Source: Halothiobacillaceae bacterium
GTDB lineage: Bacteria; Pseudomonadota; Gammaproteobacteria; Halothiobacillales; Halothiobacillaceae
Direction of reading: 5' to 3'
Length of the DNA stretch: 42,495 nucleotides
NCBI GenBank assembly: GCA_016938615.1
Contig: JAFGUH010000111.1
Span: 1-42,495, forward strand
Each line of letters begins with the position of its first letter. The stretch's first letter is position 1. Positions 10,515 to 35,389 of this stretch are shown in pieces. A program made the position numbers and the translations under genes. The notes below the pieces were generated by a model. It made no database searches. It was not told where the DNA came from and saw only the letters and a list, made by a program, of their open reading frames with translations.

Positions 10515-10650
10515 GGAAACCTCTGCCCGAATCGTTCGTGTCGGCAGCGGGACCGCCACATACCAACCAACCTGCGGTGTTGCGGCGCTTGGCAATGGCG
10601 ACGGCCATCGTGCGGCGCAAGGCGCCCTGCCTCCGGCCGCCAGCCCCCCG
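10515..10650 (+). mobile_element. Partial copy of the dispersed inverted-repeat element, interior inverted
   Basis: The left end (GGAAACCTCTGCCCGAATCG, then GTGTCGGCAGCGGGACCGCC) matches the left end of the 35.1-kb copy over about 45 bases. The rest contains the conserved interior hairpin (centred on ATGGCGACGGCCAT, with GCGGCGCAAGGCGCC) in the opposite orientation to that end. No right end is found, so this is a rearranged or truncated copy between mltF and the EAL gene. Confidence 0.65.
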
Positions 10651-10659
10651 TAGAAGCGT

Positions 10660-10673
10660 TGGACAATTGTCCA
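10660..10673. promoter_or_regulatory. Perfect 14-bp palindrome, candidate operator
   Basis: TGGACAATTGTCCA lies 133 bp upstream of the EAL-domain start. It resembles, but is one base longer at its centre than, the two CGGACATTGTCCG-type dyads at 20.6 kb. No promoter boxes around it are convincing. Confidence 0.45.
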
Positions 10674-10805
10674 GAGGACCACGGGGAAAAACGGGCTCGC
10701 CCCAAAACCGTCATCACAAGGTCATTTTGACAGGGGACGCTTGACGGTCGTTGGATGCGAGGTGCCCGACCGGCCGGCATCCGAAGACCAACGACGAGGG
10801 AGTGC

Positions 10806-12932
10806 ATGGCACACGGGCAAAACGGATGTCCTCGTTGCAGCGACATCGGCGAGTTGGCGTGCGGGAAACTCGATCCGTCGAGTCCCGAGGCCATGGAATT
10901 ACGTCGGATATTCCGCGAGAAGGCGCTCTCGACCGTCTTTCAGCCGATCGTCGCCTGCGAAGATGGCGAGGTGATCGGCTGGGAGGCTTTGCTGCGCGGT
11001 CCCGAGGGGCCCCTGCACCGGCCGCTCGACCTGTTCCACGCCGCCGAACGACACGGCTGCCTGGTGGAGCTCGACATGCTCGCCCGCCGCCTGGCACTAC
11101 GTCGTTTCGCCGACTCGCCCGTCGGCGACACCGGCCAGCTGTTTCTCAACGTGATGATCGACTCCGTCCGCGCCGAGGAATCCTACGAGACGCTGACCGC
11201 CGGTTGTGTCGAGGCGCTCGGCGTGCATGTCGGCCGTATCGTGATCGAGATCAGCGAACTGCACCCAAGCCCGGACACAAGCGCTATCGTCCGTGCGGTC
11301 ACCCGATTCCAGCGCGACGGATTCCGGGTCGCGCTCGACGACGTCGGGACCGGATACAACGGACTGCACCTCTGGGCAGAAACTCGGCCGGACATCATCA
11401 AGGTGGATCGCTATTTCGTCGACGGCATCCATGCCTGTGGCAAGAAGCGCCGCTTTCCTCAGGGAACCGCTGCACGCATGCCATGCCGCTCTGGCCTTTC
11501 GAGCTGCTCGTGATCAAGACGCGTTGTCGCCGGCGTGCCGGTGGCCACGTCAAGACGACGCAACGCCGAGCACGGGCAGCTCGACAGGCCCCGCAGGGCG
11601 CGCCTTGAGCCAGGCACCTGCTGCGTTGTCGTCCTTGAAAAGGGAATAACCCTTTCGCGGCGGACGAGCGCCTTGCATCTGCCGGGCTCAAGACGCGCAG
11701 AGCGGTATGGCATGCGTGCAGCGGTTCCCGGGACAATAGTTCGGCTCGCACATTCGCTCGGTTGCCAGGTAGTCGCCGAGGGGCTCGAACAGGAGGCCGA
11801 TCGCGTCGTGCTCGTCGCACTGAACGTCGAAATGGCGCAGGGCTACCTTTACGCGCGCCCCGCCCGCGTCCCGCCACTCGCCGCGCGCCTAGTCACCGAC
11901 CCCACACCGCGCGAACGAACCAATCAGGCGGGGGCCGAGACGGCGCATGCCCTGCTCGAACCGCACGAGTCGCTCCACCCGGACTACTCGGTCGCCGACG
12001 TGGTCGCGCGATTCCTGAACGTTCCCGAAATCGACTATTACCCCGTGATCGACGAGGGTCGACAGGTGCTGGGCATGGTCTGGCGGCGGGAATTCATGAA
12101 CCGCTTGCTCTATCGCTACGGCTACGATCTGTATCACCGCAAGCCGATTCGGCAACTGATGGATTGCCAACCGATCGTGGCGGATCTGCGCACGCCATTG
12201 GAGACGGTCTCCCGCCTGATCACCGACTCGCGCAAGGGCTTTCGCAAAGAGGCCGTGATCCTGGTCGAGAACGGCCGGTACGTCGGTGTGGGCAGCTTCA
12301 CGAGCCTGTTGCGATTGATCACCGACATCAAGGTGCAGAGCGCCCACTACGCCAATCCGCTCTCCGGACTACCGGGCAACATCCCCATCCGGGCGGAACT
12401 TCAGCGCCTGCTCGACGAGCGCCGCGCCTTCACCGCGCTGTATCTGGATCTCGATCACTTCAAGCCCTACAACGACCATTACAGCTATGAAGACGGAGAC
12501 AAGGTCATCCGCTACCTCAGCCACCTGCTCCAACGGATCAGCGGAGTGGATTTTCTCGGTCACGTCGGCGGGGACGACTTCGTCGCGATCACCACAATGA
12601 TGACGCGCGGGGAAGCGATCGCCGCACAGGCCATCGCCGAATTCAGCGGCGGCATCGCCTCGTTCTACCGGGGCGAGGATCGCAAGGCGGGCGTCATACT
12701 GGGCCGTGACCGCGAAGATCAGCCTCGACGGTTCCCGTTGATGACGCTTTCGGTGGGCCTGGTCAACGTCGAGGCCGGCACCTTGACCCACCAGCAGCAT
12801 CTGGCTTCCCTGATGACCCGTGCCAAAAAGGCCGCCAAGGCGGCCGGCGGCAACACCTGGCGAGTTGTGCATTCCGCGGAGGAGAGCACCGAGGGACCGT
12901 CGTCGAGGCGGCCTCAGCCGATCTTGAGATAG
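10806..12932 (+). pseudogene. EAL-CBS-GGDEF cyclic-di-GMP protein gene, interrupted by a small element
   Basis: EAL domains hydrolyse and GGDEF domains make cyclic-di-GMP. ATG 10806 follows GAGGGAG closely and is preferred to ATG 10755. The first 219 codons encode most of an EAL domain (signature EALLRG near 60; DDVGTGYNGL near 180; IKVDRYFVDG near 197). At 11463 the frame enters an inserted element and stops at TGA 11511. From 11733 the same frame resumes with the missing EAL end (TIVRLAHSLGCQVVAEGLEQ), a CBS pair (about 11960-12340) and a C-terminal GGDEF domain with motif GGDDF, an Asp for the usual Glu. The interruption is exactly 270 bp, so without it the gene would encode about 618 residues. 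Both halves otherwise look intact, suggesting a recent event. The downstream half could still be translated from an internal start such as GTG 11535 inside the element. Confidence 0.85.
11463..11728 (-). mobile_element. Miniature inverted-repeat element inside the EAL-GGDEF gene
   Basis: The ends are near-perfect inverted repeats of about 30 bp: left GGAACCGCTGCACGCATGCC..., and the right end reads the same on the other strand with one mismatch. The interior, read on the minus strand, aligns piecewise with the 20.2-kb copy (GATGCAAGGCGC; CAACGCAGCAGGTG...CTGGC; GCGGGGC; CTCGGCGTTGC). It carries no transposase. Flanks are TCAG on the left and CGGG on the right, compatible with a decayed 4-bp duplication. 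With the right 4 bp it adds 270 bp to the host gene. Confidence 0.85.
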
Positions 12933-13867
12933 TCGCCGCCGTGTTCCTTGAGAAAGGCGAGGAATTCACGGGCGATCACCGAAAGGACCTTGCCGCGCGG
13001 GTAGACGATGTTCCACTGGCGTTGCAGCGGAAAGCCCGCCACGTCCAGCTTGGTCAACGGGCCGGCATCGCTTTCCAGGTTCAGCGCGTGCTCCGAGACG
13101 ATGGAAATCCCAAGCTGCCCGACTACGGCGTGCTTGATCGCTTCGGGTCCCTCGAGCACCAGCCGCTGGCGCAGGGTCAGTCCGTGCAGGGCGAAGTGTT
13201 CCTCGATCTTGTTGCGGATGCCCGAACCGGGTTCCCGCATGATGAACGGCTCCTCGGCGATCCGTTCCAGCGGGATGTCGCGCTCGCGGGCCAGCGGGTG
13301 GTCGCGGTGGGCGATCACCACCAGTGGGTTGGGCGCGAACGGGATGAGTTCGAGGTCCAGGCTGCTGCGAGGCACATGGCCGATGATGTAGAGATCCGAG
13401 AGGTTGTCCTCGATGCGCTTCACGAGCGTGTCGCGGTTGGAGACCTTGAGCTCCATCTCGATGTCGGGGTACTGCCTGGCGAAATCCCCCATCGCCAGCG
13501 GTGCGAAGTACTTGGCCGTGGTGATCACCGACAGGCGCAGCCGCCCCTTCTTCAGTCCCTTCAGGTCATTGAGCGACATCTCGAGGTTCGACAACGCGTC
13601 GATCACGTCGCGACAGCCCCGGGCGACCCGGTTGCCTGCATCGGTAAGAAAGATCTTGCGGCCGATCTGCTCGAACAGAGGCATGCCGACGGTCTCGGAC
13701 AAACTCTTGACCTGGGCCGAGACGGTCGGCTGAGTCAGGAACAGTTCCTCGGCCGCCCGCGTGAAGCTCCCCAGCCGGGCGACTGCCTCGACGATCTCGA
13801 TCTGCCGCAGGGTGGCGTGCCGAAGGAGATACCGCGCCTCCGATTGCCGAGTATCGTCAGCCATCAT
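12914..13867 (-). CDS. cbbR: LysR-type regulator, CbbR family
   Basis: CbbR-type regulators control carbon-fixation and inorganic-carbon uptake genes and sense Calvin-cycle metabolites. The 317-residue product has an N-terminal winged helix (residues about 17-75: LRQIEIVEAVARLGSFTRAA then QPTVSAQVKSLSETVG) and a two-lobed effector domain (about 100-310, with the GPEAIKHAVVGQLGISIVSEHAL segment typical of CbbR). The start at 13867 has a strong ribosome-binding sequence (AGGAGA). The gene is divergent from dabB across a 448-bp region with several LysR-like dyads, the classic LysR-target arrangement. Its 3' end overlaps the end of the GGDEF gene on the other strand by about 19 bp. Confidence 0.9.
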   Translation of the reverse strand: MMADDTRQSEARYLLRHATLRQIEIVEAVARLGSFTRAAEELFLTQPTVSAQVKSLSETVGMPLFEQIGRKIFLTDAGNRVARGCRDVIDALSNLEMSLNDLKGLKKGRLRLSVITTAKYFAPLAMGDFARQYPDIEMELKVSNRDTLVKRIEDNLSDLYIIGHVPRSSLDLELIPFAPNPLVVIAHRDHPLARERDIPLERIAEEPFIMREPGSGIRNKIEEHFALHGLTLRQRLVLEGPEAIKHAVVGQLGISIVSEHALNLESDAGPLTKLDVAGFPLQRQWNIVYPRGKVLSVIAREFLAFLKEHGGDYLKIG

Positions 13868-13892
13868 GCCTCTCCTTCACCTGTTCGTTCCG

Positions 13893-13916
13893 TTGCATAG
13901 AACCGATTCTATGCAA
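13893..13916. promoter_or_regulatory. 24-bp dyad upstream of cbbR, candidate CbbR operator
   Basis: Two perfect 10-bp arms, TTGCATAGAA and TTCTATGCAA, separated by CCGA. It lies 26 bp upstream of the cbbR start, where LysR-type regulators autoregulate. The GCATAGA half-motif recurs near 14046 (CCATAGA) and 14177 (GCATAGA) in the same gap. Confidence 0.6.
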
Positions 13917-14029
13917 CACCGCGCCGAAGATCGATCCAGGGCCCGTATCTCGCGCCTCTCCGGGTCGATGGAGGCGCCGCCGGAAGGCACCGCGTGCCAT
14001 CGTTACCATTGGAATGATCCATCCCATCC

Positions 14030-14045
14030 ATTGATATAAATCAAT
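14030..14045. promoter_or_regulatory. Palindrome ATTGAT-N4-ATCAAT in the cbbR-dabB gap
   Basis: AT-rich perfect 6-bp dyad around ATAA, set in GC-rich surroundings and about 270 bp upstream of dabB. A related segment ATCAATGGATCA occurs at about 14191-14202, the complement of TGATCCAT...CCATTGAT at 14015-14035. It may be a second CbbR half-operator or part of the dab promoter. The role is inferred from position only. Confidence 0.45.
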
Positions 14046-14315
14046 CCATAGAGCGGCAACGGCGAAACCATTGCCCGAGGTCTATTGAAAGAGGAACGCC
14101 GTCACGGCGGGCATAGCGGCGCATTTCGAGGCCCCGCCCCCCTATTCATCGCTCCGAAGGCCACGCGGAAATCCGTGCATAGATCAGGATCAATGGATCA
14201 CTTCAGGAATTCGTATTGGTGATCGATCGCGCCCATCTCTACCTTTCGTCCTGCCGGCGGGACCGTCTGGACTCCTCCAGCGGACCCGAACCACCAGCCC
14301 GACCGGAGGGACACC

Positions 14316-15980
14316 ATGAACACACTGACCAACTGGCCGCTTGCCGGCACCCTGCTCGCCCTGATGCCGCTGCTCCTGCTGATCGCGGCAATCCCCGCCA
14401 CGGCCGCAGGCGTGGAGGCCGCTTCGCGCTATCGCCGCCGTGTCCGCTGGGCGGCCATTGGCGCCTTGGTGCTGGCGATCGCCGCGACCGTCGTCTTCCT
14501 CGCGGGCGACCGGGCGCCGCTGACCCTCGCCGCCCTGCCCCTGCCGGGTGACATCGGCGCGCTGGCGCTGTCGATCCAGGTCGACCAGCTGACCATGGCG
14601 CTGGCCGTGCTGGTGGCACTGGTCGTGACCCTGATCGCCCGCTACAGCGAGAAGTACCTCGACGGCGACCCGCAGCAGGCCCGCTTCTTCCGCCTGCTTG
14701 CGCTGACCGCCGGCTTCTTCCTGCTGGTGGTGATCTCGGCAAACCTCGCGCTGTTCACGCTGGCGATCATCCTGACCGGCTTTCCCTTGCACAAGCTGCT
14801 GCTGTTCTACCCGGACCGGCCGCGCGCGGTGATGGCAACGCACAAGAAGGCGCTGTTCAGCCGCAGCGCGGACGCCTGCCTGGTCGGCGCCACCCTGCTG
14901 ATCGGCCACCAGGTCGGCAGCCTGCAGTTCGACGCGATCGCCGAGTGGGCCCATGCCCAGGACGGCATGACATTCGGGATGCACGTCGCGGCCTTCCTGA
15001 TCGTGCTCGCCGCGATCCTCAAGAGCGCCCAGTTCCCGTTCCACGGCTGGCTGCTGCAGGTGATGGAGGCGCCCACCCCGGTCTCGGCCCTGATGCACGC
15101 GGGTGTCGTCTACAGCGGCGCGATCATCGTGCTGCGCACCAGCGAATTCCTCGCCGCCCAGGGCAGCGCGCTGTTCCTGCTCGCGATCGTCGGGCTGGCA
15201 ACCTTGGTGATCGCCTCCCTGGTCATGCTCACGCAGACGGCCGTGAAGTCCTCGCTGGCCTGGTCGACCACGGGTCAGCTCGGCTTCATGCTGCTCGAGC
15301 TGGGCCTGGGCCTGTTCGCGCTGGCCCTGCTGCACCTGGTCGGCCATTCGCTCTACAAGGCTCATGCCTTCCTCGCCGCCGGCAGCATCCCCGACCAGCT
15401 GCGCCAGCCGAAACCGGCCGCACGCCGCCGGGTGGGCGTCGCTACCTGGGCGGTCACGATCGCCGCCAGCCTCGCCTTGACCGCGGCACTGGCCGCCGCG
15501 CTCGGCCTCTCGGTGAGCCACGAGCCGGCGCTGATCGCCCTGATCGCGATCGTCGCCCTGGCGGTGGCCCAGCTGGTGCTCAAGGCGATCATCGTCGCCC
15601 CGGGGGTTGCCGGCATCGCGCGGGCCGCGGGGCTGGCCGCGATCATGGCGGCGGTCTACTTCGCGCTGCACGAGGCGTTCGTGACCCTGTTCGGGCCGAC
15701 GGTCGCCGCGATCCCCGACACCCTGACGCCGGCCTACGGCCTGATGCTGGCACTGACCACCATCAGCTTCCTGTTCCTCGCCTGGCTGCAGGGACCGGGA
15801 CGCGAGCACTTCAACGGCTCGGGCCGCAAGGGGCTGTTCGTCCACCTCTACAACGGGCTGTACGTCGACTTGCTGGTCGAGCGCGCCGCGCATCGCCTCT
15901 GGCCGCACAAGGTCGGTCAGCACCGCTCGCGCCATGACGCGCTCAAGGCGCAAACGCCCGTCACAACCACCCAATACTGA
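14316..15980 (+). CDS. dabB: DabB, proton-conducting membrane subunit of the DAB inorganic-carbon pump
   Basis: DabB belongs to the Complex I NuoL/MrpA antiporter family and couples the cation gradient to vectorial CO2 hydration by DabA. The 554 residues contain about 13-14 hydrophobic segments. They include the family helix set with HKKALFSRSADACLVG (about residues 176-191), ILKSAQFPFHGWLLQVMEAPTPVSALMHAG (about 235-264, the conserved Lys and quinone-oxidoreductase signature), STTGQLGFMLLELG (about 317-330) and HLVGHSLYKAHAFL (about 340-353). ATG 14316 is supported by GGAGGGACACC just upstream. dabA follows after 31 bp. The pairing with a DUF2309 gene separates this from a true NuoL. Confidence 0.95.
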   Translation: MNTLTNWPLAGTLLALMPLLLLIAAIPATAAGVEAASRYRRRVRWAAIGALVLAIAATVVFLAGDRAPLTLAALPLPGDIGALALSIQVDQLTMALAVLVALVVTLIARYSEKYLDGDPQQARFFRLLALTAGFFLLVVISANLALFTLAIILTGFPLHKLLLFYPDRPRAVMATHKKALFSRSADACLVGATLLIGHQVGSLQFDAIAEWAHAQDGMTFGMHVAAFLIVLAAILKSAQFPFHGWLLQVMEAPTPVSALMHAGVVYSGAIIVLRTSEFLAAQGSALFLLAIVGLATLVIASLVMLTQTAVKSSLAWSTTGQLGFMLLELGLGLFALALLHLVGHSLYKAHAFLAAGSIPDQLRQPKPAARRRVGVATWAVTIAASLALTAALAAALGLSVSHEPALIALIAIVALAVAQLVLKAIIVAPGVAGIARAAGLAAIMAAVYFALHEAFVTLFGPTVAAIPDTLTPAYGLMLALTTISFLFLAWLQGPGREHFNGSGRKGLFVHLYNGLYVDLLVERAAHRLWPHKVGQHRSRHDALKAQTPVTTTQY

Positions 15981-16011
15981 TTCGCCGGGTATCTACCGGG
16001 AGGACACGGCC

Positions 16012-18495
16012 ATGACACTGGCAACGCAGACCCAACAGCACAACGCCCAGGCGACCCGCGCGACCGGGCGGCTCGACCTCGACCACGTCCGCGAACTGGC
16101 CGACGCGGCCGGGCGCAAGATCGCCCCGCTCTGGCCGCTGGACTCGTTCGTCGCAGTCAACCCCTACCTCGGCCTGATCGACCAGCCGTTCAGCGAGGCG
16201 GCCGGCTACCTCGGCGCGATCGCCGGCGAGCGCACGGTCATGGACCACGAGTGGTACGCCCAGCGCTGGCGCGATGGGCGACTGACCCGCGCGCATATCG
16301 AGCGTGCCGTCGAGCAACTGGGCCACCCGGTTGGCGTCGAGACCGTGATCAAGGCGTTGGAGGCCCCGCACCGGAGCAGCACGCCGATCCCCATGCTGGT
16401 CGAGATGCTCGACCGCCCCGGTTCGGCACCGATCTCGATCTTCGTGGTCGACCAGATCAGCCACTTCCTCGCCGCGCATTTCGATCGTGGCCAAGCGATC
16501 TGGAGCGCCCCGGACGAGAGCGAGTCGCTGTTCACCGCCTGGCGCGAGTACACCCTGATCGATCGCAGCGCCCGCGCCGCCGGCCTGGGTCGCGCCCGCC
16601 GCCACCTGCGCGAGGTGCCGCCCGACCCGATCGAGGCCATCGCCTGGGCGATCGAGACCCTGGACCTACCCGAATCGGTGCATGCCGATTACCTGTTCGC
16701 CGCGCTCAAGTCGGTCAACGGCTGGGCGAGCTACTGCCGTTATCGCCTCTGGGGTGCCGAACTGACCGGCAAAACAAACGAGGATCTCACCGACCTGCTG
16801 GCCGTACGGCTGGTCTGGGAGGCGTTGGCACTCAAGGTGACAGACAACAGCGCGCCCATCCGGAAGGCATGGCAGCGCGAAATCGAACGCCACCACGAGG
16901 CAATCGCCGCCGCCGAGAACGAGGCGGTGATCGACGAGGTCATGCTCACGGCCACCGAGATCGCCTTCCGCGATCCGGTCATCCGGCATTTCCGTCAGGC
17001 GAGCCCTGCCGCGCGGACCGACACGGCACGCCCGCCGGTACAGGCCGCCTTCTGTATCGACGTACGCTCGGAGGTCTTCCGTCGTCACCTGGAAACCAGC
17101 TTCCCGGGCGCCCGGACCATCGGCTTTGCCGGTTTCTTCGGCGTGCCGCTTTCCTACTCCCGTCTCGGCGAAACCAAATGCCGCACGCACACGCCCGTGC
17201 TCCTCAACCCCGGCGTCGAGGTCGCCGACCGTGTCGAGGGCGAGGAGGACCTCGCCACTCGCCGCGAACAACGGGTCGGCAATACCCTGTCCTGGAAGCA
17301 GTTCAAGCTCTCGGCCGCCTCCTGCTTCACCTTTGTCGAGTCGGCCGGTCTGACCTACGTCCCGAAGCTGATCGGCGACACGCTCGGCTGGCACACCCCG
17401 GCACCGCCGCCGGACCAGGCCGGGCTGACCGACGAGGAGCGCGCCCGGATCCACCCGTCGCTTGCCTCCGAGGCCGACCTCGAGGCCCGCGTGGGCATGG
17501 CCGAGGGCATCCTGCGCGGCCTGGGCCTGACCGAGTCGATCGCACCGATCGTGCTGCTGGCCGGCCACGGCAGCACCACGACCAACAACCCGCACCGCGC
17601 GGGCCTGGATTGTGGTGCCTGCGCCGGACAGACCGGCGAGGTCAGTGCCCGGGTGGCCGCCGACCTGCTGAACGACCCGGCGATCCGGGACGGCCTGGTC
17701 GGGCGTGGCATCGAGATCCCCGCCGATACGTGCTTTATCGCCGCGCTGCACGACACCACCACCGACGAGGTCGACCTGCTCGACCTCGACGAGGGGGCGG
17801 TCGATCGGGCCAAGCTCGACGAGTTGCGCCAGGCGCTGGTGCAGGCCGGTGACCTCACCCGCCTGGAGCGGCTGGTGACATTGCGCGAGAACCTTTCCGA
17901 CAACCCGGCGGACCGGGAGGCGGCGCGCAAGGCCGTGGCCCACCGCGGGCGCGACTGGTCAGAGGTACGCCCGGAATGGGGCCTGGCCGGCAACGCGGCC
18001 TTCATCGCCGCCCCGCGCGAGCGCACCCGCGACCTGGATCTGGGCGGCCGCTCGTTCCTGCACGACTACGACTGGCGCCGTGACGAGGGCTTCGGCGTGC
18101 TCGAGCTGATCCTGACCGCCCCGCTGGTGGTGGCCAGCTGGATCAACCTGCAGTACTTCGGCTCGACGGTCGATAACGAGCGCCAGGGTTCAGGCAACAA
18201 GGTCCTGCACAACGTCGTCGGCGGCCTGGTCGGCGTGCTCGAGGGCAACGGCGGCGACCTGCGGGTCGGTCTGTCGATGCAGTCGCTGCACGACGGCGAG
18301 AACTGGCGCCACGAGCCGCTGCGCCTGTCGGCCTTCGTCGAGGCGCCCGCCGAGGCGATCGACGACATCATCGCCGGCAACGAAACCCTGCAGCACCTGG
18401 TGGGCAATCGCTGGCTCACCCTGCTGCGTCTGACCGACGAGGGCGACGTGCAGCGCCGCCGGGGCCCGGGGGACTGGGTCAGCGAAGCGGCCTGA
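16012..18495 (+). CDS. dabA: DabA, DUF2309 zinc protein of the DAB inorganic-carbon pump
   Basis: DabA is a cytoplasmic, membrane-associated beta-carbonic-anhydrase-like protein that hydrates CO2 to bicarbonate in one direction when coupled to DabB. The 827-residue length fits the family. The four positions known as zinc/catalytic residues in Halothiobacillus DabA are all present: Cys348 and Asp350 in AFCIDVRSE, His519 in LAGHGS, and Cys534 in LDCGACAGQTG. ATG 16012 with upstream GGGAGGA is chosen over an upstream in-frame ATG at 15934 that lies inside dabB. The next 350 bp are non-coding, and the carbonic anhydrase has its own ribosome-binding site. Confidence 0.96.
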   Translation: MTLATQTQQHNAQATRATGRLDLDHVRELADAAGRKIAPLWPLDSFVAVNPYLGLIDQPFSEAAGYLGAIAGERTVMDHEWYAQRWRDGRLTRAHIERAVEQLGHPVGVETVIKALEAPHRSSTPIPMLVEMLDRPGSAPISIFVVDQISHFLAAHFDRGQAIWSAPDESESLFTAWREYTLIDRSARAAGLGRARRHLREVPPDPIEAIAWAIETLDLPESVHADYLFAALKSVNGWASYCRYRLWGAELTGKTNEDLTDLLAVRLVWEALALKVTDNSAPIRKAWQREIERHHEAIAAAENEAVIDEVMLTATEIAFRDPVIRHFRQASPAARTDTARPPVQAAFCIDVRSEVFRRHLETSFPGARTIGFAGFFGVPLSYSRLGETKCRTHTPVLLNPGVEVADRVEGEEDLATRREQRVGNTLSWKQFKLSAASCFTFVESAGLTYVPKLIGDTLGWHTPAPPPDQAGLTDEERARIHPSLASEADLEARVGMAEGILRGLGLTESIAPIVLLAGHGSTTTNNPHRAGLDCGACAGQTGEVSARVAADLLNDPAIRDGLVGRGIEIPADTCFIAALHDTTTDEVDLLDLDEGAVDRAKLDELRQALVQAGDLTRLERLVTLRENLSDNPADREAARKAVAHRGRDWSEVRPEWGLAGNAAFIAAPRERTRDLDLGGRSFLHDYDWRRDEGFGVLELILTAPLVVASWINLQYFGSTVDNERQGSGNKVLHNVVGGLVGVLEGNGGDLRVGLSMQSLHDGENWRHEPLRLSAFVEAPAEAIDDIIAGNETLQHLVGNRWLTLLRLTDEGDVQRRRGPGDWVSEAA

Positions 18496-18600
18496 CCGGC
18501 GGCGGGTCCATCCGGCGTCTCTGGAGCGAGGCCTGCCGTGCCGGTTTGCTTTTCGTGGCCCCATCTATGTCCCGGCCGTGGTCTTTCGCCTGATCGCGCC

Positions 18601-18670
18601 GGGAAACGCTCCAGGAATAGCCAACGCCTCTGGTTTATGGCTTTGGTCGTCATCAAGGCGCGGCTTCGGA
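18601..18670 (-). mobile_element. Truncated copy of the dispersed inverted-repeat element
   Basis: About 70 bases (GGGAAACGCTCCAGGAATAG..., CCAACGCCTCTGG, CATCAAGGCGC) match the reverse complement of the right end of the 20.2-kb copy with scattered mismatches. The interior and the other end are missing. It lies in the gap between dabA and the carbonic anhydrase gene. The rest of that gap (18671-18843) shows no other recognised feature beyond the AAGGAG ribosome-binding sequence. Confidence 0.7.
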
Positions 18671-18843
18671 CGTGGATACAACCTCATGATTTTGCGACCC
18701 GCCGGATGTAGGGAGAAACCAATAACCGGCAAACGGAGATGCCATCGAATCACGCAGAGAGTGTTCAACGGAACTAGTAGCCCTGCTATGCAGTCGGACC
18801 GGGTGATTATTCACCCCGACAATCAACCGACAAGGAGTCCTTG

Positions 18844-19599
18844 ATGCGATCTATTCGATTCTCTTCCACCACCCTCGCCGTACTCGTGGCAGCAGCCGGC
18901 CTCTCCCAGCAGGGCATGGCCGCCAGCGCGGGCCAATGGAGCTACGAGGGCGATACCGGTCCGTCGTCATGGGAAACGCTGGACCCCGCCTACGCAAGCT
19001 GCGGGCAGGGGGCAAACCAGTCACCGATCGACCTGGCATCGCCCATCCCGGCCGAGCAGCCTGCCCCGGTCTTCCACTACAGTGCCGGCGGGGTCGACAT
19101 GGTCAACAATGGCCACGCCGTGCAGGTGAACTACCAGGAAGGCAGCACGCTGACGCTCGACGACCGGGACTTCCAGCTCCGACAGTTCCACTTCCATGCG
19201 CCAAGCGAGCACACCGTGGACGGGCGTCATTTCCCGCTCGAGGCGCATTTCGTCCACCGGGACCCGGTTGGCAATCTGGCCGTCGTCGCCGTGCTGTTCG
19301 AAAAGGGAGAAAGCAATCAGGCACTCGAACCGCTGGTCGAGACGTTGCCCGACAAGGCCGGCGAAAAGGTTCGACTGGATAGCGTCTTCGACGCGGCCGA
19401 CCTGTTGCCGATCAAGACCGCGCACTATCGATACAACGGCTCGCTGACCACGCCGCCTTGTACTGAGGGCGTGCGTTGGGTGGTGATGAAAGAGCACCCC
19501 ACCCTGTCCGCCGAGCAAATCCACGCCTTCGAGACCGCGATCGGGATGGACAACAACCGGCCGGTCCAGCCGGTCAATGCCCGCGTGATCGTCGATTGA
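18844..19599 (+). CDS. Alpha-class carbonic anhydrase, periplasmic
   Basis: Interconverts CO2 and bicarbonate, probably in the periplasm. The 251-residue precursor has a Sec signal peptide (about residues 1-27, ending near GMAASA). It contains all alpha-class hallmarks: WSYEGDTGPSSW at the mature start, NQSPIDL, the zinc ligands in QFHFHAPSEH (two His) and LEAHFVH (third His), and the substrate-pocket segment SLTTPPCTEGVRW. ATG 18844 is preferred to the TTG just before it because AAGGAG lies seven bases upstream. Its place right after dabBA suggests it equilibrates CO2 outside the membrane to feed the pump. A strong terminator follows the gene. Confidence 0.95.
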   Translation: MRSIRFSSTTLAVLVAAAGLSQQGMAASAGQWSYEGDTGPSSWETLDPAYASCGQGANQSPIDLASPIPAEQPAPVFHYSAGGVDMVNNGHAVQVNYQEGSTLTLDDRDFQLRQFHFHAPSEHTVDGRHFPLEAHFVHRDPVGNLAVVAVLFEKGESNQALEPLVETLPDKAGEKVRLDSVFDAADLLPIKTAHYRYNGSLTTPPCTEGVRWVVMKEHPTLSAEQIHAFETAIGMDNNRPVQPVNARVIVD

Positions 19600-19672
19600 G
19601 GCCATCTCGGCACGACAATCGGTGACGTTCACGATCACCCCCTGGCTGACCAGGTTCGGTAGCCGGAAGCAC

Positions 19673-19700
19673 AAAGGGCGAGTCTTGGACTCGCCCTTTT
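19673..19700. terminator. Bidirectional intrinsic terminator between carbonic anhydrase and cynS
   Basis: Perfect 12-bp stem AAAGGGCGAGTC / GACTCGCCCTTT with loop TTG. It gives a T run on the plus strand and the matching A run for the convergent cynS transcript. Confidence 0.9.
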
Positions 19701-19734
19701 CACGTTCGTCTTACCGGGACCACGGCAAGTGCGC

Positions 19735-20178
19735 CTACCACGATTTATAGGGCAGGAACTTGCCGTTCATGGTGATCACCACCCGATCGCCGGCCGGGTT
19801 GGCCTCGCGGTCCACGCCCAGGGTGAAATCGATCGCGCTCATGATGCCATCGCCGAACTCCTCGTGGACCAGCTCCTTGATGGTCGGGCCGTACACGCCC
19901 ATGACCTCGTAGATGCGATAGATCAGCGGATCGGTGGGCACGGTCTGTTCCCAGGTCTTCATCGGGCAGGCCTCGATCGCGGCCTTGGCCTCGCCCGGCA
20001 GTTCGAGGATCGCGACCAGCTTGTCGGCGAATTCGGGCTTGAGGCTGTTCATGCCCAGGCAGGCCGACGTCACGAAGGTCGGCGACAACCCCACCCCGCT
20101 GGCGATATCGGCCCAGGACAGGCCCAGCTCGGTCTTCTTTTCCAGGATCAGGTCGGTCAGTGCTTGCTTGGTCATCAT
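19735..20178 (-). CDS. cynS: Cyanate hydratase (cyanase)
   Basis: Catalyses cyanate + bicarbonate to carbamate and CO2, the carbamate then giving ammonia and a second CO2. The 147-residue length is typical of the decameric enzyme. It has an N-terminal helix-turn-helix-like domain (about residues 1-80) and the C-terminal active-site domain, with the catalytic Arg, Glu and Ser in PLIYRIYEVMGVYG and FGDGIMSAIDF. It is convergent with the carbonic anhydrase gene. In an autotroph with a bicarbonate pump it links cyanate detoxification to carbon and nitrogen supply. There is no cyanate permease next to it; the NrtA-type importer at 28 kb is a candidate partner (inference). Confidence 0.97.
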   Translation of the reverse strand: MMTKQALTDLILEKKTELGLSWADIASGVGLSPTFVTSACLGMNSLKPEFADKLVAILELPGEAKAAIEACPMKTWEQTVPTDPLIYRIYEVMGVYGPTIKELVHEEFGDGIMSAIDFTLGVDREANPAGDRVVITMNGKFLPYKSW

Positions 20179-20216
20179 GCGGGCATCTCCGTCAAGGGAT
20201 CACGTTGGTTTGCTTG

Positions 20217-20474
20217 GGAAGGTCTGCACGAATAGCCAACGCCTTTGCGGGTCGCCAGGCGTCGAGGTGCAAGGCGCCGCCCAATGGCCGTAGTCATTGG
20301 CAAGCGCTGCAACACCGCAGATGGGCGCCTGGCGGCCCGCCCCCCGGGGCTTTCCGGCTTATCCGCCCTCGGTGTTGCCGATCCTCGCCGGGCACTGAGC
20401 CCGTCTTCGAATCGGCGCCTTGATGGCGAACAAGCCGGTAAGCCAGAGGCATTGGCTATTCGTGCAGCCCTTCC
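20217..20474 (+). mobile_element. Complete copy of the dispersed inverted-repeat element (258 bp) with 4-bp duplication
   Basis: The ends are inverted repeats (left GGAAGGTCTGCACGAATAGC; right reads GGAAGGGCTGCACGAATAGC on the other strand). They are flanked by the same four bases, CTTG, at 20213-20216 and 20475-20478. The interior is made of paired hairpin segments (CAATGGCCGTAGTCATTGG; GGCGGCCCGCC; the CTCGGTGTTGCC region) and encodes no protein. It starts 39 bp upstream of cynS and is the best-preserved copy in this window. Confidence 0.85.
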
Positions 20475-20589
20475 CTTGGTGGCCGGGAAGGGCCACTGCT
20501 CGCTTCATTACAAGAAGCCTGCCAAGCATAGTTTTTCACTTTATTTCAGCCGGTTAGATCACCACCTCCCCTAACACCCCACCTTGAAT

Positions 20590-20634
20590 CGGACATTGTC
20601 CGCTCCGCACCGCACAAACATCGGACATTGTTCG
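20590..20634. promoter_or_regulatory. Two dyads upstream of the OsmC operon, candidate enhancer-binding sites
   Basis: CGGACATTGTCCG at 20590-20602 and CGGACATTGTTCG at 20622-20634 are 32 bases apart start to start, about three helical turns, so a protein would bind the same face twice. They lie about 76-120 bp upstream of the sigma-54 promoter at 20710, the usual distance for activator sites. Confidence 0.65.
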
Positions 20635-25258: not shown

Positions 25259-25354
25259 ACGCCCATTGCCCCCTTAAGGCTTGCTTTATCCGAAAGGCCG
25301 AGTAACAACCGTAGGGGAACGATTCCGCATTTCCTGGCTTGACGAGGCGCCATC

Positions 25355-25972: not shown

Positions 25973-26027
25973 GCTGAACCAACAGGCCCGATCGGCTTGC
26001 GCGCGAGCGTCGGGTCACGCCAGCCAG

Positions 26028-27698: not shown

Positions 27699-27841
27699 GG
27701 TGACGCTCCGGCTCGGTGGCAATCACCACGTTTGCAAGAAGCAGGCCCGCGACTTTGTCCGTCATTGGCGGGCATTGTGCGGCGATCGACCGCGGATCAC
27801 CGCACCAGAAGCGGGACCACCGACCCACGACCGCTTCCCGC

Positions 27842-27859
27842 TGGTGCGAAAAGGCACCA
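27842..27859. promoter_or_regulatory. Inverted repeat TGGTGC-N6-GCACCA, candidate activator site
   Basis: A perfect 6-bp dyad about 45 bp upstream of the sigma-54 promoter at 27901, in the gap between the activator gene and the transporter. A further GCACCA half-site occurs at about 27801. It is a plausible upstream activator sequence for the adjacent NifA-type protein. Confidence 0.6.
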
Positions 27860-27900
27860 ATTCCCATTAGATGGCGCCGAATCGCAAATAACTCGCGGCA

Positions 27901-27916
27901 TGGCACGGCATCTGCA
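27901..27916 (+). promoter_or_regulatory. Sigma-54 promoter of the NrtABD-like operon
   Basis: TGGCACGGCATCTGCA matches the -24/-12 consensus with GG-N10-GC spacing. Transcription would start near 27926, about 30 bp before the first gene. Confidence 0.85.
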
Positions 27917-27955
27917 ACTTGCTCGGAGTCCCTCAACCGAACGAGAGCGAAAACC

Positions 27956-29332: not shown

Positions 29333-29335
29333 GTC

Positions 29336-30178: not shown

Positions 30179-30180
30179 AC

Positions 30181-31053
30181 ATGACTACCCCCGCATTCAT
30201 CCAGGTCGACGGCCTGGAGAAGACCTTCCCCGCGCCGATGGGCCAGGAACCGGTCACCGTGTTCCAGAACCTCGACTTCGAAATCGAAAAGGGCGAGTTC
30301 GTCTGCCTGATCGGCCACTCGGGCTGCGGCAAGTCGACCATCCTCAACATCCTCGCCGGGCTGGATGCCGCGACCGACGGCTACGTCTTCATGGAAAACC
30401 GGCAAGTCACCGGACCGGGTCTCGACCGCGGCGTGGTATTCCAGGGCCACGCCCTGATGCCCTGGCTGACGGTGCGCGAGAACGTCGCCTTCGCGGTGAA
30501 ATCCCGCTTCAAGCGCCACTCCAAGGATGAGGTGAACGCGCAGGTGGAGAAGTACGTCGACATGGTTGGGCTGACCCCGGCGATCGACAAGAAGCCGCAC
30601 CAGCTCTCCGGCGGGATGCGCCAGCGGGTCGGCATCGCCCGGGCGTTCGCCATCGAACCGAAGATGCTCCTGATGGACGAGCCCTTCGGTGCGCTCGACG
30701 CCCTGACCCGCGGCGTGATCCAGGACGAGCTGCTGGCGATCTGCCAGGCCACCAACCAGACCGTCTTCATGATCACCCACGACGTGGACGAGGCGATCTT
30801 GCTGGCCGACAAGATCCTGCTGATGACCAACGGGCCGTTCGCCGAGGTGGCCGAGTGCGCCTACAACCCGCTGACAAAGCCGCGCTCACGCCAGGAAATG
30901 CACCATGACGAGCACTACTACCCGTTCCGCAATCACCTGATGGATTTCCTGGTCAACGGGCCGAGCACGCCCTACGCGGACAAGCTGGAAGGTAACGAAC
31001 CGCCGCCGGTCGAGGCGCCAGCCGACAGGCCGCGCCGGGTGGTCAATGGCTGA
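30181..31053 (+). CDS. ABC transporter ATP-binding protein, NrtD/CmpD family
   Basis: A 290-residue ATPase with Walker A GHSGCGKST (about 45-53), Q-loop GVVFQGHALMPWL, signature LSGGMRQR (about 142-149), Walker B MLLMDEPFGALD and switch His in MITHDVDEA. The C-terminal extension (about 230-290) is typical of NrtD/CmpD, and there is no fused receptor domain of the NrtC kind. It is last in the operon, followed by a 17-bp tandem repeat and a terminator. Confidence 0.93.
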   Translation: MTTPAFIQVDGLEKTFPAPMGQEPVTVFQNLDFEIEKGEFVCLIGHSGCGKSTILNILAGLDAATDGYVFMENRQVTGPGLDRGVVFQGHALMPWLTVRENVAFAVKSRFKRHSKDEVNAQVEKYVDMVGLTPAIDKKPHQLSGGMRQRVGIARAFAIEPKMLLMDEPFGALDALTRGVIQDELLAICQATNQTVFMITHDVDEAILLADKILLMTNGPFAEVAECAYNPLTKPRSRQEMHHDEHYYPFRNHLMDFLVNGPSTPYADKLEGNEPPPVEAPADRPRRVVNG

Positions 31054-31066
31054 TCCGCCACCCCAT

Positions 31067-31100
31067 CCCACATGACAATCCGGCCCACATGACAATCCGG
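31067..31100 (+). repeat. Perfect tandem duplication of 17 bp
   Basis: CCCACATGACAATCCGG occurs twice in direct succession (31067-31083 and 31084-31100). The second copy supplies the left arm of the terminator that follows, so the first copy is a spare left arm. Confidence 0.9.
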
Positions 31101-31120
31101 CCCAGGTGGCCGGATTTTTT
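31094..31120 (+). terminator. Intrinsic terminator of the NrtABD-like operon
   Basis: Perfect 9-bp stem AATCCGGCC / GGCCGGATT with loop CAGGT, followed by TTTT. Confidence 0.9.
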
Positions 31121-31152
31121 GTGCAGCCCGCCCTATCCTTCTCGAACCTGGC

Positions 31153-31653
31153 TCAAACCTGGCGGGCAACGGTCTCAGCGATCTGCTGGTCCTCGAGGCG
31201 GTAGACCATCAGTGACACCTGCTGAAGCCTTCGGGGCCGGTAGGCGGCGATCTCTTCGAGAATCAGGCGGCAGCCGGTGGCCAGGTCGAAACCGGCACCC
31301 CCGCAACCGAGCGGCGGAATCACCAAAGCGGCGCAACCGAGTTCGTCGGCCTTCTCCACGGTGTTGCGAACGGCGTCGCGGATACTATGCTCAGAAGCAC
31401 GTCCGTCGCCGTAACGGGGCATGGCGGCCGCGTGGATCACCCAGCGGGCCGGGAGATCGAACGCCGGCGTCACGGCGGCGCCTCCCAGGTCAACCGGCTC
31501 CTGTGCCATGGCGGCCGCGTCGATCGGACCGCGCGACGCCTCGCGAAGCGAACCGGCGACCCCGCTGCCCATCGCGAGCGTGGTGCCGGCGGCGTCGACC
31601 AGGCAATCGGCGGACTGCGCGGCGATATCGCCCTGTATGATCGCGAACTCCAT
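31153..31653 (-). CDS. Macro-domain protein
   Basis: Macro domains bind or hydrolyse ADP-ribose and its derivatives. The 166-residue product is a single macro fold: GDIAAQSADCLVDAAGTTLAMGSGVAGSLREASR (about residues 8-41) gives the conserved adenine and distal-ribose loops, although the usual DAIVNAAN is LVDAAGT here. The second loop PPLGCGGAGFDLATG (about 113-127) binds the phosphates. The missing Asn of the NAAN motif may lower de-ADP-ribosylation activity. It is divergent from the M16 peptidase genes and convergent with the ABC operon. No toxin partner is adjacent. Confidence 0.86.
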   Translation of the reverse strand: MEFAIIQGDIAAQSADCLVDAAGTTLAMGSGVAGSLREASRGPIDAAAMAQEPVDLGGAAVTPAFDLPARWVIHAAAMPRYGDGRASEHSIRDAVRNTVEKADELGCAALVIPPLGCGGAGFDLATGCRLILEEIAAYRPRRLQQVSLMVYRLEDQQIAETVARQV

Positions 31654-31814
31654 GATCGCCTCCGGGTTTGGACGACTCCGAGTTTGTCCCCGAGTCTGGA
31701 CCCCGGAGGCGGGGAAGTGAAACCCCGGCGAGTGCGGGCGGTCTCACCGTGCCGTGCCATCGAGCCTGCCGCGTATCCGCGGCGTTCCTCAATCCACATC
31801 GGGACACCAAACGC

Positions 31815-33218
31815 ATGCATCGAGCACGCCCCCTGACACGCCTCACCACCCTGCTCTCCCTGCTGACCACGTTGTGCCTGCCCGCGATCGCCACCGCGGC
31901 CATGAACGTGCACGAAGCGACGCTCGACAACGGCCTGAAGGTGCTGGTGCTGCCGGATGATCGAGCACCGGTCGTCACCCACCAGATCTGGTACAAGGTA
32001 GGCTCGGCCGACGAGCCGGGGGGCATCACGGGCATCGCCCACATGTTCGAGCACATGATGTTCAAGGGCACCGATGCGCTCGGCCCCGGCGAATTCTCGG
32101 AGATCATCGCGCGCCTCGGTGGCGAGGAGAACGCCTTCACCGGGCGTGACTTCACCGCCTATTACCAGACGCTCACCGTCGAACATCTCGAAACCGTGAT
32201 GCGCTGGGAGGCCGACCGGATGGCGAACCTCGCACTCGATGCCGAGGAGTTCAGAAAGGAGAAGGCGGTGGTCAAGGAGGAATGGCGCTCCCGCGTTCGC
32301 GACGACCCCAACGCCCGACTCAATCAGCTGCTCTACGCGACGGCCTTTGCCAGCAGTGGCTACCACCATCCCGTAATCGGCTGGAAGACCGACATCGACG
32401 CCTACACCATCGCGGACCTCAAGCGCTGGTACGCCGAGCATTACGCCCCGAACAACGCCACGTTGGTCGTGGTCGGGGACGTCGATCCGCAGAACGTGTT
32501 CGACCTGGCGCGTCGATACTACGGCTCGGTCGAGCGCCGCGATCTGCCGACGGCCAAGCCCCGCGAAGAGAAGCCGCAACACGGAATCAAGCGGGCCCAC
32601 CTGTCGATCCCGTCGAAACTGCCGCGCCTCTCGATGGGCTACAAGGCCCCCTCCCTGGCCACCGCCGACGAGGAGCGAACCGCCTACGCGCTCGCGGTGG
32701 CCGCCGGCATCCTCGCCGGCGATTCCGGCGCCCGGCTGAACAACGACCTGGTTCGGGCCGGCAAGCTCTCCAGCGCATCGGCCGGCTACAACCTCAACGC
32801 ACGCGAGACCACCCTGTTCACCCTCGATGCCACCCCGCGAGAGGGCCAATCGCTCGACGAGACCGAGGACCTGTTGCAAAAGCAGATCGAACGATTGAAG
32901 AACGAGCCCGTCAAGCCCGAGGAACTCGACCGCATCAAGGCCCAGGTGGTCGCCTCGGACGTCTACGAGCGCGACTCGCTGTTCTACCAGGGGATGACGC
33001 TGGGCATGTACGAAACCGTCGGTCTCGACTACCGGCTGGCCGATCGCTTCGTCGAAGGCATCCGTGCCGTAACGGCCTCGGACGTTCAGGCCGTGGCCAA
33101 CCGTTACTTCCGGGACGACGGACTCACCGTGGCGACCCTCGACCCCGCCGCGGAAGAAAAGCCCTCTCTCGCCGATTCGACCCGCAAAGCACCCACCGGA
33201 GGTACCGAGCGTGATTGA
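31815..33218 (+). CDS. M16-family zinc metallopeptidase (catalytic subunit)
   Basis: A secreted pitrilysin/processing-peptidase-type protease. The 467-residue precursor has a signal peptide (about residues 1-28), the inverted zinc motif HMFEH in GIAHMFEHMMFKGT (about 73-86) and the distal Glu region EFRKEKAVVKEEWRSRV (about 136-152). The M16_C domain (about 190-375) follows. ATG 31815 is chosen because the signal peptide starts there. It overlaps the next gene by eight bases. Such pairs work as heterodimers in which one subunit has the zinc site. Confidence 0.92.
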   Translation: MHRARPLTRLTTLLSLLTTLCLPAIATAAMNVHEATLDNGLKVLVLPDDRAPVVTHQIWYKVGSADEPGGITGIAHMFEHMMFKGTDALGPGEFSEIIARLGGEENAFTGRDFTAYYQTLTVEHLETVMRWEADRMANLALDAEEFRKEKAVVKEEWRSRVRDDPNARLNQLLYATAFASSGYHHPVIGWKTDIDAYTIADLKRWYAEHYAPNNATLVVVGDVDPQNVFDLARRYYGSVERRDLPTAKPREEKPQHGIKRAHLSIPSKLPRLSMGYKAPSLATADEERTAYALAVAAGILAGDSGARLNNDLVRAGKLSSASAGYNLNARETTLFTLDATPREGQSLDETEDLLQKQIERLKNEPVKPEELDRIKAQVVASDVYERDSLFYQGMTLGMYETVGLDYRLADRFVEGIRAVTASDVQAVANRYFRDDGLTVATLDPAAEEKPSLADSTRKAPTGGTERD

Positions 33219-34593
33219 CGCGCGACGCCAGACCCGGCGACTGATCCCGGTCGCTCTTCTCACCCTGTTGAGTACCCTGACCACACTGGCCGCGCACGCC
33301 GAGAGCGTCCTGCCGGTCGAGACCTGGCAGACCGACAACGGCGCCAAGGTCCTCTTCTACGCCACCGATAGCCTCCCGATCGTCGATGCGCAACTCATCT
33401 TCGACGCGGGCAGTGCCCGCGACCCCAAGGAGGGGGCCGGCACGGCAAGCCTGACCGCAAGCCTGCTCGAGGAAGGCACCACCGAACGCGATGCCAAGGC
33501 GATCGCCGACGGGTTCGCACGGGTCGGCGCCGAGTTCTCCGCCAGCGCGAACCTGGAGTCGACCGCCATCCACCTGCGCAGCCTGACCGAATCCGACTGG
33601 CTCTGGCCGGCGGTGGACCTGATGGCCGAGGTCGTGGCCCGCCCGGCCTTTACCACCAACGACGTGAATCGCGAGCGCGAGCGACAGTTGCGGTCGATCG
33701 AGGCCCGTGGGCAGTCCGCCCAGGCAGTGGCCAATGATGCACTGCGTCGCGCGGCCTTCGGCGATCACCCCTACGGCCACCCCACCGACGGCAGCACCGA
33801 GAGCGTCGAGCGCATCCAGCGCGCCGACGTCCAGGCATTCCACCAACGCTATTACGTCGCGAACAACGCCATCGTCATCATCGTGGGCGATCTGGATCAC
33901 GATCAGGCCGAGCGGCTTGCAAACCGTCTCACCGCCGCACTGCCCGCCGGCGAGTCACCCCCCGAGCTGCCAGCGGTGCCACCACTGGAGAAATCGCGAA
34001 CCGTCCACGTCGATTTCCCTTCCGAGCAGTCGACCGTGCTGGTCGCCTTCGACGGCATTCCGCGCCGTCACGAGGCCTACATGCCGCTTTACGTGGGCAA
34101 TCACATCCTTGGCGGCAGCGGGTTTGCCTCGCGGTTGATCGGCGAGCTCCGCGAAAAGCGGGGCCTTGCCTATAGCACCTACAGCTACCTGATGGCCCTG
34201 CGTGCGGGCGGGCGCTTCGTGATGGGGATTCAGACCCGCAGCGACCAGGTCGACCATGCCTTGGACCTGATGCTCGAGGAGTTGGACGTTTTCGTCGCGA
34301 ACGGCCCGACGAGCGCTGAACTCGACGACAGCAAATCGAACCTGGTCGGGGGGTTCCCGATGCGATTGAACAGTAACCGCAAGATCGCGGAGCAACTCGG
34401 ATCACTTGCCTTCCTCGGCCTGCCGCTGGATTACTTCGATCACTACACCGACCGGGTGCGAGCGGTCGATGCCAAACAGATCCAGTCGGCTTTCGATCGC
34501 CACGTTCACAGGGGTCATCACATCGAGGTGATTGTCGGACCCGACAAGCGCGACGACCGGGCGGCTGCGCCGAGTGATTCCGCCCCAAACTGA
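33211..34593 (+). CDS. M16-family peptidase-like protein lacking the zinc motif
   Basis: A 460-residue precursor with a signal peptide (about 1-30) and both M16 half domains. The position that holds HXXEH in its partner reads GTASLTASLLEEG here, so it cannot bind zinc. It keeps the R/Y substrate-binding segment ELREKRGLAYSTYSYLM (about 312-328). This is the non-catalytic partner. GTG 33211 lies inside the end of the preceding gene, indicating coupled translation. Confidence 0.92.
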   Translation: MIDARRQTRRLIPVALLTLLSTLTTLAAHAESVLPVETWQTDNGAKVLFYATDSLPIVDAQLIFDAGSARDPKEGAGTASLTASLLEEGTTERDAKAIADGFARVGAEFSASANLESTAIHLRSLTESDWLWPAVDLMAEVVARPAFTTNDVNRERERQLRSIEARGQSAQAVANDALRRAAFGDHPYGHPTDGSTESVERIQRADVQAFHQRYYVANNAIVIIVGDLDHDQAERLANRLTAALPAGESPPELPAVPPLEKSRTVHVDFPSEQSTVLVAFDGIPRRHEAYMPLYVGNHILGGSGFASRLIGELREKRGLAYSTYSYLMALRAGGRFVMGIQTRSDQVDHALDLMLEELDVFVANGPTSAELDDSKSNLVGGFPMRLNSNRKIAEQLGSLAFLGLPLDYFDHYTDRVRAVDAKQIQSAFDRHVHRGHHIEVIVGPDKRDDRAAAPSDSAPN

Positions 34594-34683
34594 GGGAACT
34601 TGGGCAATCGTCGTCGATCCTATTCCCAGAATGACGCGTAAGCGGGCTTGGCCCGCCGATCAATCCATACCGGAGACAGCCTC

Positions 34684-35007
34684 ATGTCAGTACGCATTCC
34701 GACACTGTTGGCGGCCCTGATCCTCCCTGCCACGGCCGCGGTGGGTGGTGAGCTGCACCAGGACGCGGCCATCGGCGGAGCCATCGGCGGTGCGCTGGGC
34801 GGCGTGGTAGGTGCCGAGGTCGGCGGCCGCGAGGGCGCGATCGTGGGCTCGGGCATCGGCGCGGCCGTCGGCACGGGTGTGACCACGCGCGATTACGACG
34901 ACCACGACGAGTACCGCTACCGCGATCGGCATCGCCACGAGATTCATTACGACTCGCACCCGAGCCGATTCTGTCCGCCAGGACAGGCAAAGAAGGGTCG
35001 CTGCTGA
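34684..35007 (+). CDS. Glycine-zipper exported protein
   Basis: A 107-residue protein with a signal peptide (about 1-22), a glycine-zipper segment with repeated GGAIGGALGGVVGAEVGG and GSGIGAAVG patterns (about 30-66), and a polar tail rich in Asp, Arg and His (about 70-95) ending in a Cys. Glycine-zipper proteins (SlyB/YMGG type) associate with the outer membrane and are often stress-induced. GGAGA lies about eight bases before ATG 34684. The function is unknown. Confidence 0.8.
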   Translation: MSVRIPTLLAALILPATAAVGGELHQDAAIGGAIGGALGGVVGAEVGGREGAIVGSGIGAAVGTGVTTRDYDDHDEYRYRDRHRHEIHYDSHPSRFCPPGQAKKGRC

Positions 35008-35067
35008 CCTCAGCCGCTCGTGTCGGCACGCGGCCGAGGCGAGCGAAAAACCGCCTATCTCCGCTAG

Positions 35068-35389
35068 GGGAACTCTGCACGAATCGATAGTGTCTGAAGC
35101 GGGACCGCCAAGGGTCCAGGTGCAAGGCGCGGCGCGCGGTGAATGGCCGTCGCCATTCGCACACGCGGCAACGCCGCAAATGGGCCCTTTAAGATGGGCC
35201 CTTTCAGATGGGCCCTTGCAGATAGCCCCTGGGCGGCCCGCCCGGACGGGGCCCGCGGATTTGCCCGCACTCGTCGTTACCGACCCTCGACGGGCCCAAG
35301 TTATCGCCTTGGGCCCGCCTTCGGTCCGGCGCCAGAAAAGCGAACAAACCCGCGAGCCAGAGGCATCATCGATTCGTGCAGAGGTTCCC
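35068..35389 (+). mobile_element. Complete copy of the dispersed inverted-repeat element (about 320 bp)
   Basis: The left end GGGAACTCTGCACGAATCGA and the right end (GGAACCTCTGCACGAATCGA on the other strand) are inverted repeats. The interior matches the 20.2-kb copy (GCAAGGCGC; ATGGCCGTCGCCAT; CAACGCCGCAAATGGGC; GGCGGCCCGCC). It holds an extra triplication of ATGGGCCCTT (35180, 35194 and 35208, 14-base period). Flanks are CTAG before and CCAG after, possibly a decayed 4-bp duplication. It ends eight bases before the stop of the convergent gene. Confidence 0.85.

Follow-up and report, generated by a model that had tools for sequence, protein, structure and literature searches.

The window, by which we mean the whole 42,495-nucleotide stretch analysed (Halothiobacillaceae bacterium, assembly GCA_016938615.1, contig JAFGUH010000111.1), carries a dispersed family of short, gene-free repeats. 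These are miniature inverted-repeat transposable elements (MITEs) with ends of the IS5 group of insertion sequences; the constant part of the family is a double hairpin and the variable part is the end. An initial annotation had placed five copies at 10515, 11463, 18601, 20217 and 35068. The sequence and the repeats are present at all five places, but two of the five are decayed fragments and a decayed sixth copy had been overlooked. The six are listed below, with scores from R1, a covariance model of one arm of the double hairpin built from 28 sequences.

20217-20474, plus strand: full copy, subfamily C, ends GGAAGGTCTGCACGAATAGCC; hairpin of the first arm at 20246-20343 (R1, 85.0 bits)
35068-35388, plus strand: full copy, subfamily A, 321 bp; first arm at 35098-35202 (R1, 79.7 bits), with tandem ATGGGCCCTT-type units in this arm
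11463-11728, minus strand: full copy, subfamily B, 266 bp, interrupting an EAL-domain gene (PF00563); arms at 11492-11593 (plus) and 11595-11699 (minus) (R1, 33.5 and 97.4 bits)
10510-10677, no strand assigned: decayed and rearranged copy; left end at 10515 and part of an arm (R1, 33.7 bits at 10568-10636)
18602-18759, no strand assigned: decayed copy; all that remains is end-proximal, at 18602-18675 and 18721-18759
about 2231-2360, plus strand: decayed sixth copy; an arm (R1, 33.4 bits) and the right end GCATTCGTGCAGCG within 2342-2360

The three full copies are 258-321 bp in length and contain no transposase gene, in agreement with the gene-free elements of about 258-322 bp first described. 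The arms in the window that score above 79 bits have a GC content of 0.64-0.72. As initially reported, the copy at 20217-20474 is flanked by an exact duplication of CTTG (20213-20216 and 20475-20478). The flanks of the copy at 35068-35388 (CTAG and CCAG) match inexactly and those of the copy at 11463-11728 (TCAG and CGGG) form no exact duplication, giving one exact duplication among the three full copies. Within arm 1 of the 35068-35388 copy we note three tandem units of about 14 bp (ATGGGCCCTTNNNG) at 35180-35221; extra length at the matching place is apparent in loci L032, L033 and L042.

Copies, ends and target sites

The draft genome to which the window belongs comprises 2,395,148 bases in 267 contigs. 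BLAST searches of this genome with two of the window copies returned 55 and 76 matches, which represent pieces rather than copies, and the end core TCTGCACGAAT occurs 58 + 65 times, compared with 0 + 0 for the reversed control. Ten of 11 genomes in the genus, counting this one, carry the family. In the draft a number of contigs (for example C32, C45, C78, C100, C212 and C254) start within a copy, so that the assembly is probably interrupted at the repeats and the copies are undercounted. Pairing of the ends within this genome gave 42 candidate elements, some of them overlapping, with flanks that are often CTAG, TTAG, CTTG, TTAA, CTGG or CAAG. One copy (L010, on contig C198) is a mosaic, its left half resembling subfamily C and its right half subfamily A, which suggests recombination between copies.

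From 225 loci in the genus and in one further genome, G172, we collected 156 full-length copies, keeping distinct sequences only. The ends start with GGRANNCTCTGCACGAAT and lie at CTAG-like 4-bp duplications. The duplication is exact in 44 of the 156 copies, of which 18 have CTAG; 1000 shuffles gave 13.7 on average and never more than 26. The two ends of one copy also resemble each other: they agree at position 5, at which each of the four bases is represented, in 121 copies (54.5 expected) and at position 16, which is mostly A or T, in 147 (74.5 expected). An empty site was sought for one copy, that at 11463-11728. Its flank had no match in eight of the 11 genomes of the genus, and in both relatives that did match the EAL gene is uninterrupted (G002, EKRRFLETIVRLAHSLG; G001, EKRRFLEAIVRLAHSLG). 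Terminal inverted repeats, a duplication of fixed length, the lack of a transposase gene, many copies and an empty site are features by which a MITE is recognized, and all were found. The initial annotation had read the repeats as a miniature transposable element and had expected further copies in the genome, with ends coinciding with the inverted repeats; both the reading and the expectation are borne out.

It had also proposed that an insertion sequence with matching terminal repeats be sought. A scan of 369 gammaproteobacterial genomes for GGRANNCTCTGCACGAAT gave matches in four genomes of the genus and in one other, G172, which, judged by its copies, is probably the metagenome-assembled genome Halothiobacillus sp. 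KhW_metabat.21. This genome contains a decayed IS5 element (locus L131). Its left end, GGAACCTCTGCACGAACCGATAGTG, follows CTAG, and it retains the initial portion of an IS5 transposase, which aligns to profile positions 2-80 of NF033581 with 66.7 bits, below the whole-protein cut-off. On a viral contig (L149) there is a complete IS5-group element of 1188 bp with close ends (GGGATCCTCTGCACGAATC and GGAAGCTCTTCACGAATCG) and a 328-residue transposase (NF033581, 324 bits against a cut-off of 140; PF01609, 106 bits). Two further IS5-group elements with near ends, L163 (genome G133), which has CTAG on both sides, and L166 (G249), were found by their likeness to the G172 remnant. IS5-group insertion sequences with an NF033581 transposase share with the present element a terminal GGRANCTCTGCACGAATC-like sequence, a 4-bp YTAR duplication and a preference for CTAG; they differ in that the present element is gene-free and that none of the three complete IS5 elements compared contains its hairpin pair. 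Because the termini are shared with L149 (close), with L163 and L166 (near) and with the left end of L131, the ends are assigned to the IS5 group. Judged by these termini, the insertion-sequence group that had been left open is the IS5 family, IS5 group, and the nearly identical termini support the earlier suggestion that the element would be moved by a transposase encoded elsewhere.

The exact parent insertion sequence was not found among the sequences searched. The arm sequence has no match (E up to 1) in L149, L163, L166 or the G172 remnant, and the interior does not appear to derive from any of these four IS5 loci. The 16 PF01609 matches in nine of the 27 genomes of the host family include none with a pair of these ends, and CTCTGCACG and CTGCACGAA are absent from six plasmid stretches (from six of 118 matching records) that carry the nearest relatives of the G172-remnant transposase. 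BLAST searches with the 35068 copy against plasmids and phages, and with a 40-nucleotide end against E. coli, gave no match. In two loci from sister genera (L091 and L095) a cousin-type end, GGAACCTCTGATTGAATC, is found at CTAG/CTAA-like sites.

The double hairpin and its distribution

The interior of the element consists of two hairpins of about 100 nucleotides arranged head to head. In the predicted fold of all three full window copies the terminal repeats form an outer stem, inside which a hairpin of two pairs separates two long arms. The two-arm fold was obtained for four of six cluster medoids; it is not cleanly formed by L256, a copy of 210 bp, or by the singleton L017. The outer stem has at least 15 pairs in 150 of the 156 copies and is missing from the minimum-energy fold of four, and the mean z score of the minimum free energy, calculated for 30 of these copies, is -12.8. 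In an alignment of the main subfamily (120 of the 156 copies, from two clusters of 240-345 bp, giving 119 distinct rows; 36 copies were left out), both sides have changed in 58 of 111 pairs (457 cells, compared with 75-125 when the partners are slid). In 28 rows picked for diversity from three subfamilies, covariation was found in 57 of 111 pairs (343 cells, compared with 31-72 when slid), a value reached by none of 500 shuffles. Seventeen of these 57 double-changed pairs are in the end stem (helix 1) and 40 are elsewhere.

The arm is distributed far more widely than the ends. R1 matches 87 of the 369 gammaproteobacterial genomes, whereas ends of the genus type are found in only five, and it matches 41 of 398 genomes in a sample of the phylum, 20 of them outside the class; the best 9-10 candidates per genome were scored, so that counts per genome are floors. 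We looked at 93 loci drawn from 63 genomes. By manual count, 55 loci have a forward arm with a reverse arm after it, mostly 1-7 bases away. Outer inverted repeats, accepted at an ungapped score of at least 12, were found in 79 loci (77 distinct sequences, 54 genomes), with a median length of 269 bp and with 67 of the 79 in the range 260-280 bp. A simple pair count indicates the same fold in 77 of the 79, although the outer-stem part of this criterion is partly built in because the outer repeat was preselected by score. In the other 14 loci, several of them lying at contig ends, no outer repeat was found. At least two of these (L312 and L353) appear to be single-arm elements of about 170 bp with terminal repeats of their own, and in another (L327, genome G433) two arm matches have the same orientation rather than lying head to head.

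Of the 79 elements, 71 have GCAAGGCGC at the head of the arm, one mismatch being allowed, and 54 have GCAACGCCGC, each counted as the best match within a fixed stretch. In contrast, the terminal repeats differ widely, reading GGAACCTCTGATCAATT or GGGCACCTCTATTAATAG in some elements, TAGTGTCCTGTCACACG, TAGTACTCTTTCAAGG or TAGTGTACTGCGCC in others and GAGCCTGTTGATGATC or TAGAGCGTGTTATGC in others again; a rough sorting by end type gave groups of 33, 18 and 10, with 18 unsorted. YTAR is present at one boundary at least in 63 of the 79 and at both in 42, and the corresponding counts at four shifted positions are 5-16 and 0 among 77-79; when one element per genome is taken the values are 41 and 25 of 54, compared with 5-13 and 0. 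The TAGTGTCC-type ends likewise sit at YTAR sites. A possible IS630 label for ends of this type was not used, and they may equally be assignable to IS5-like transposases.

Plasmid carriers of the arm include those of Variovorax paradoxus (with both arms), Azotobacter chroococcum and Pseudomonas aeruginosa. BLAST searches of plasmids with two other elements of this wider set gave no match, a third gave three partial matches, and an end-proximal query of the TAGTACTC type found nothing better than E 2. Scans of viral contigs for the other end types yielded six stretches, which were inspected on one side; no convincing partner end was seen and the matches were judged to be due to chance. No frame in these six was taken for a transposase by eye, without a model run.

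Interpretation of the element

MITEs are normally viewed as the decayed leftovers of a single insertion sequence. Here, it is the interior that can be recognized throughout the phylum, and it is the transposase site that varies. We consider the whole to be best explained by a non-autonomous element with IS5-group ends, belonging to a lineage that keeps its chassis (the hairpin pair) and changes its ends in concert, and we would give this explanation a probability of roughly 0.7. An IS5-group transposase supplied in trans would cut at the ends of the element, probably to the present day, and insertion would occur at CTAG-like (YTAR) sites with duplication of 4 bp. Each half would consist of one end and one arm, the whole folding to one outer stem with two arms, and the arms may aid mobilization. 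The simplest account of the wider distribution is a single old lineage that has kept its body and target type while its terminal repeats changed, jointly at the two ends, to suit the transposases of the respective hosts; we infer exchange of ends rather than drift. The strong self-complementarity of the element would allow one arm to template the other and so keep both ends alike. More tentatively, and at slightly less than even odds, the elements could form a gene-free, mobile superfamily that spans the Proteobacteria and has the hairpin pair as its defining feature, with ends replaced or drifting in concert and kept matched through intramolecular templating. If so, they would constitute an independent and long-lived lineage, parasitic on transposases and able to switch hosts by switching ends, in which one could test directly how non-autonomous elements keep matched ends and acquire new transposases.

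Several observations weigh against this explanation. Exact duplications are limited to 44 of the 156 copies, and in nine the flanks agree at none of the four positions. The 42 two-sided YTAR boundaries do not amount to two independent observations each where the site lies within the matched repeat. In the IS5 comparison, the left end of the G172 remnant is not clearly repeated in inverted form at the right end (near 1904 of L131, before CTAG), the flanks of L149 differ (CAAG and CTAG) and its right end has one mismatch to the element core, and the transposase frame of L166 is broken. PF01609 has no match in the draft genome of the window or in nine of the ten other genomes of the genus, and the sole gene found, in G008, lacks these ends; as PF05598 has no match in the 267 contigs either, the mover is absent from that genome, unassembled or undetected. 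The repeats of the other end types were linked to no transposase in the viral-contig and plasmid searches. The sense-strand arm is predicted to be the more stable in 68 of 75 cases (65 and 67 of 75 with DNA parameters), and the arms may therefore act as a single strand or as RNA. Finally, joint change of the two ends is also explicable by a transposase that binds both ends alike.

The last point can be taken further, to an explanation in which subfamily-specific variants of the transposase are the sole cause of the joint change and no hairpin-templated correction takes place. The ends are the expected sites of a transposase and several end subfamilies do exist. However, the 40 double-changed pairs outside the end stem lie where alike binding of both sides is unexpected, and we regard this explanation as unlikely.

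The double hairpin could instead be a functional RNA (a small RNA, an mRNA stabilizer or a terminator) that is retained by its hosts, mobility being only the means of its spread. The very stable fold with its covariation, the conservation of the arm head near GCAAGGCGC and GCAACGCCGC across the phylum and the predicted stability of the sense arm would all fit such a role, and another bacterial MITE, QMITE1, is transcribed according to the available text of its description (PMC5896051). Against it, mismatches of the G.T and A.C types are almost equally frequent in the outer stem (152 and 144 in the 119 rows; 74 and 50, and 76 and 61, in further counts), which suggests that pairing is maintained at the level of DNA and not of a single RNA strand; the corresponding counts in the 119 rows are 352 and 103 for arm 1 and 275 and 276 for arm 2, and are driven by a few columns. 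By symmetry, each strand would hold one sense and one antisense arm. The copy at 11463 interrupts a gene, and other copies decay in place. At the gathering threshold no Rfam family matches the window copies, the only match in the window being a guanidine-I riboswitch elsewhere, and below it two of the three full copies have only matches of E 2 or worse. Taken together, these points make a retained RNA improbable.

An ordinary MITE, derived from an IS5-group element by internal deletion of the transposase gene and with an interior of leftover or captured sequence, would account for the IS5-type ends and target duplications, and insertion sequences are the usual origin of MITEs in the available text of PMC10969869. 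The arm, however, is matched neither in the three complete IS5 elements nor in the G172 remnant, and the interior is folded, covaries and is found behind other ends in 87 of the 369 genomes of the class; we reject this origin as quite improbable. A REP/REPIN-type element moved by a RAYT (HUH) transposase, which the dispersed palindromic repeats might recall, is rejected as next to impossible on size and target duplications (RAYT genes were not searched for), the 4-bp duplications making it very unlikely and the long terminal inverted repeats and length of 260-280 bp contrasting with the 20-40 bp given for REPs in the available text of PMC3733652.

The R1 model offers an annotation route for a repeat class that is present in 87 of 369 sampled gammaproteobacterial genomes and whose window copies have no Rfam family. 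The Correia, ERIC, RUP and bcr elements are also palindromic mobile repeats with a foldback structure; to our knowledge, each comes from few lineages and has other ends and targets. Correia and ERIC are named in the available part of PMC10969869, in which bacterial MITEs are short, gene-free and present in many copies, with terminal inverted and direct repeats and a stable predicted fold, as is the case here. They are typically AT-rich in that account, whereas the present element is GC-rich, and its interior is recognizable in sequence and shape throughout the phylum while the terminal repeats differ. QMITE1 of Coxiella burnetii, compared by description only, is similar in its 300-400 bp, its approximately 50 copies and its predicted fold near -193 kcal/mol, but according to the text available (PMC5896051) it has variable direct repeats of 2-3 nucleotides and, per its authors, no orthologues elsewhere. 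The available texts of PMC10969869, PMC4853749, PMC5896051, PMC2718517, PMC4666352 and PMC2267715 do not describe the present element, nor did a search of titles and the openings of abstracts for its motif strings find a description. The open-access literature thus yielded no earlier account, and, with supplements and subscription papers beyond reach, we call the element undescribed provisionally.

Neighbouring genes

Genes for the use of inorganic carbon and cyanate are clustered at 15934-20178 of the window. The decayed copy at 18602 sits between the genes for DabA (15934-18495) and carbonic anhydrase (18841-19599), and the full copy at 20217 adjoins a cyanase gene (19735-20178, minus strand). 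The guanidine-I riboswitch lies at 39623-39726 on the plus strand (99.3 bits; gathering threshold 63), at the start of a set of ABC transporter genes. The frame at 39659-40867 matches TIGR03427 (putative urea transporter substrate-binding protein) from residue 75 on.

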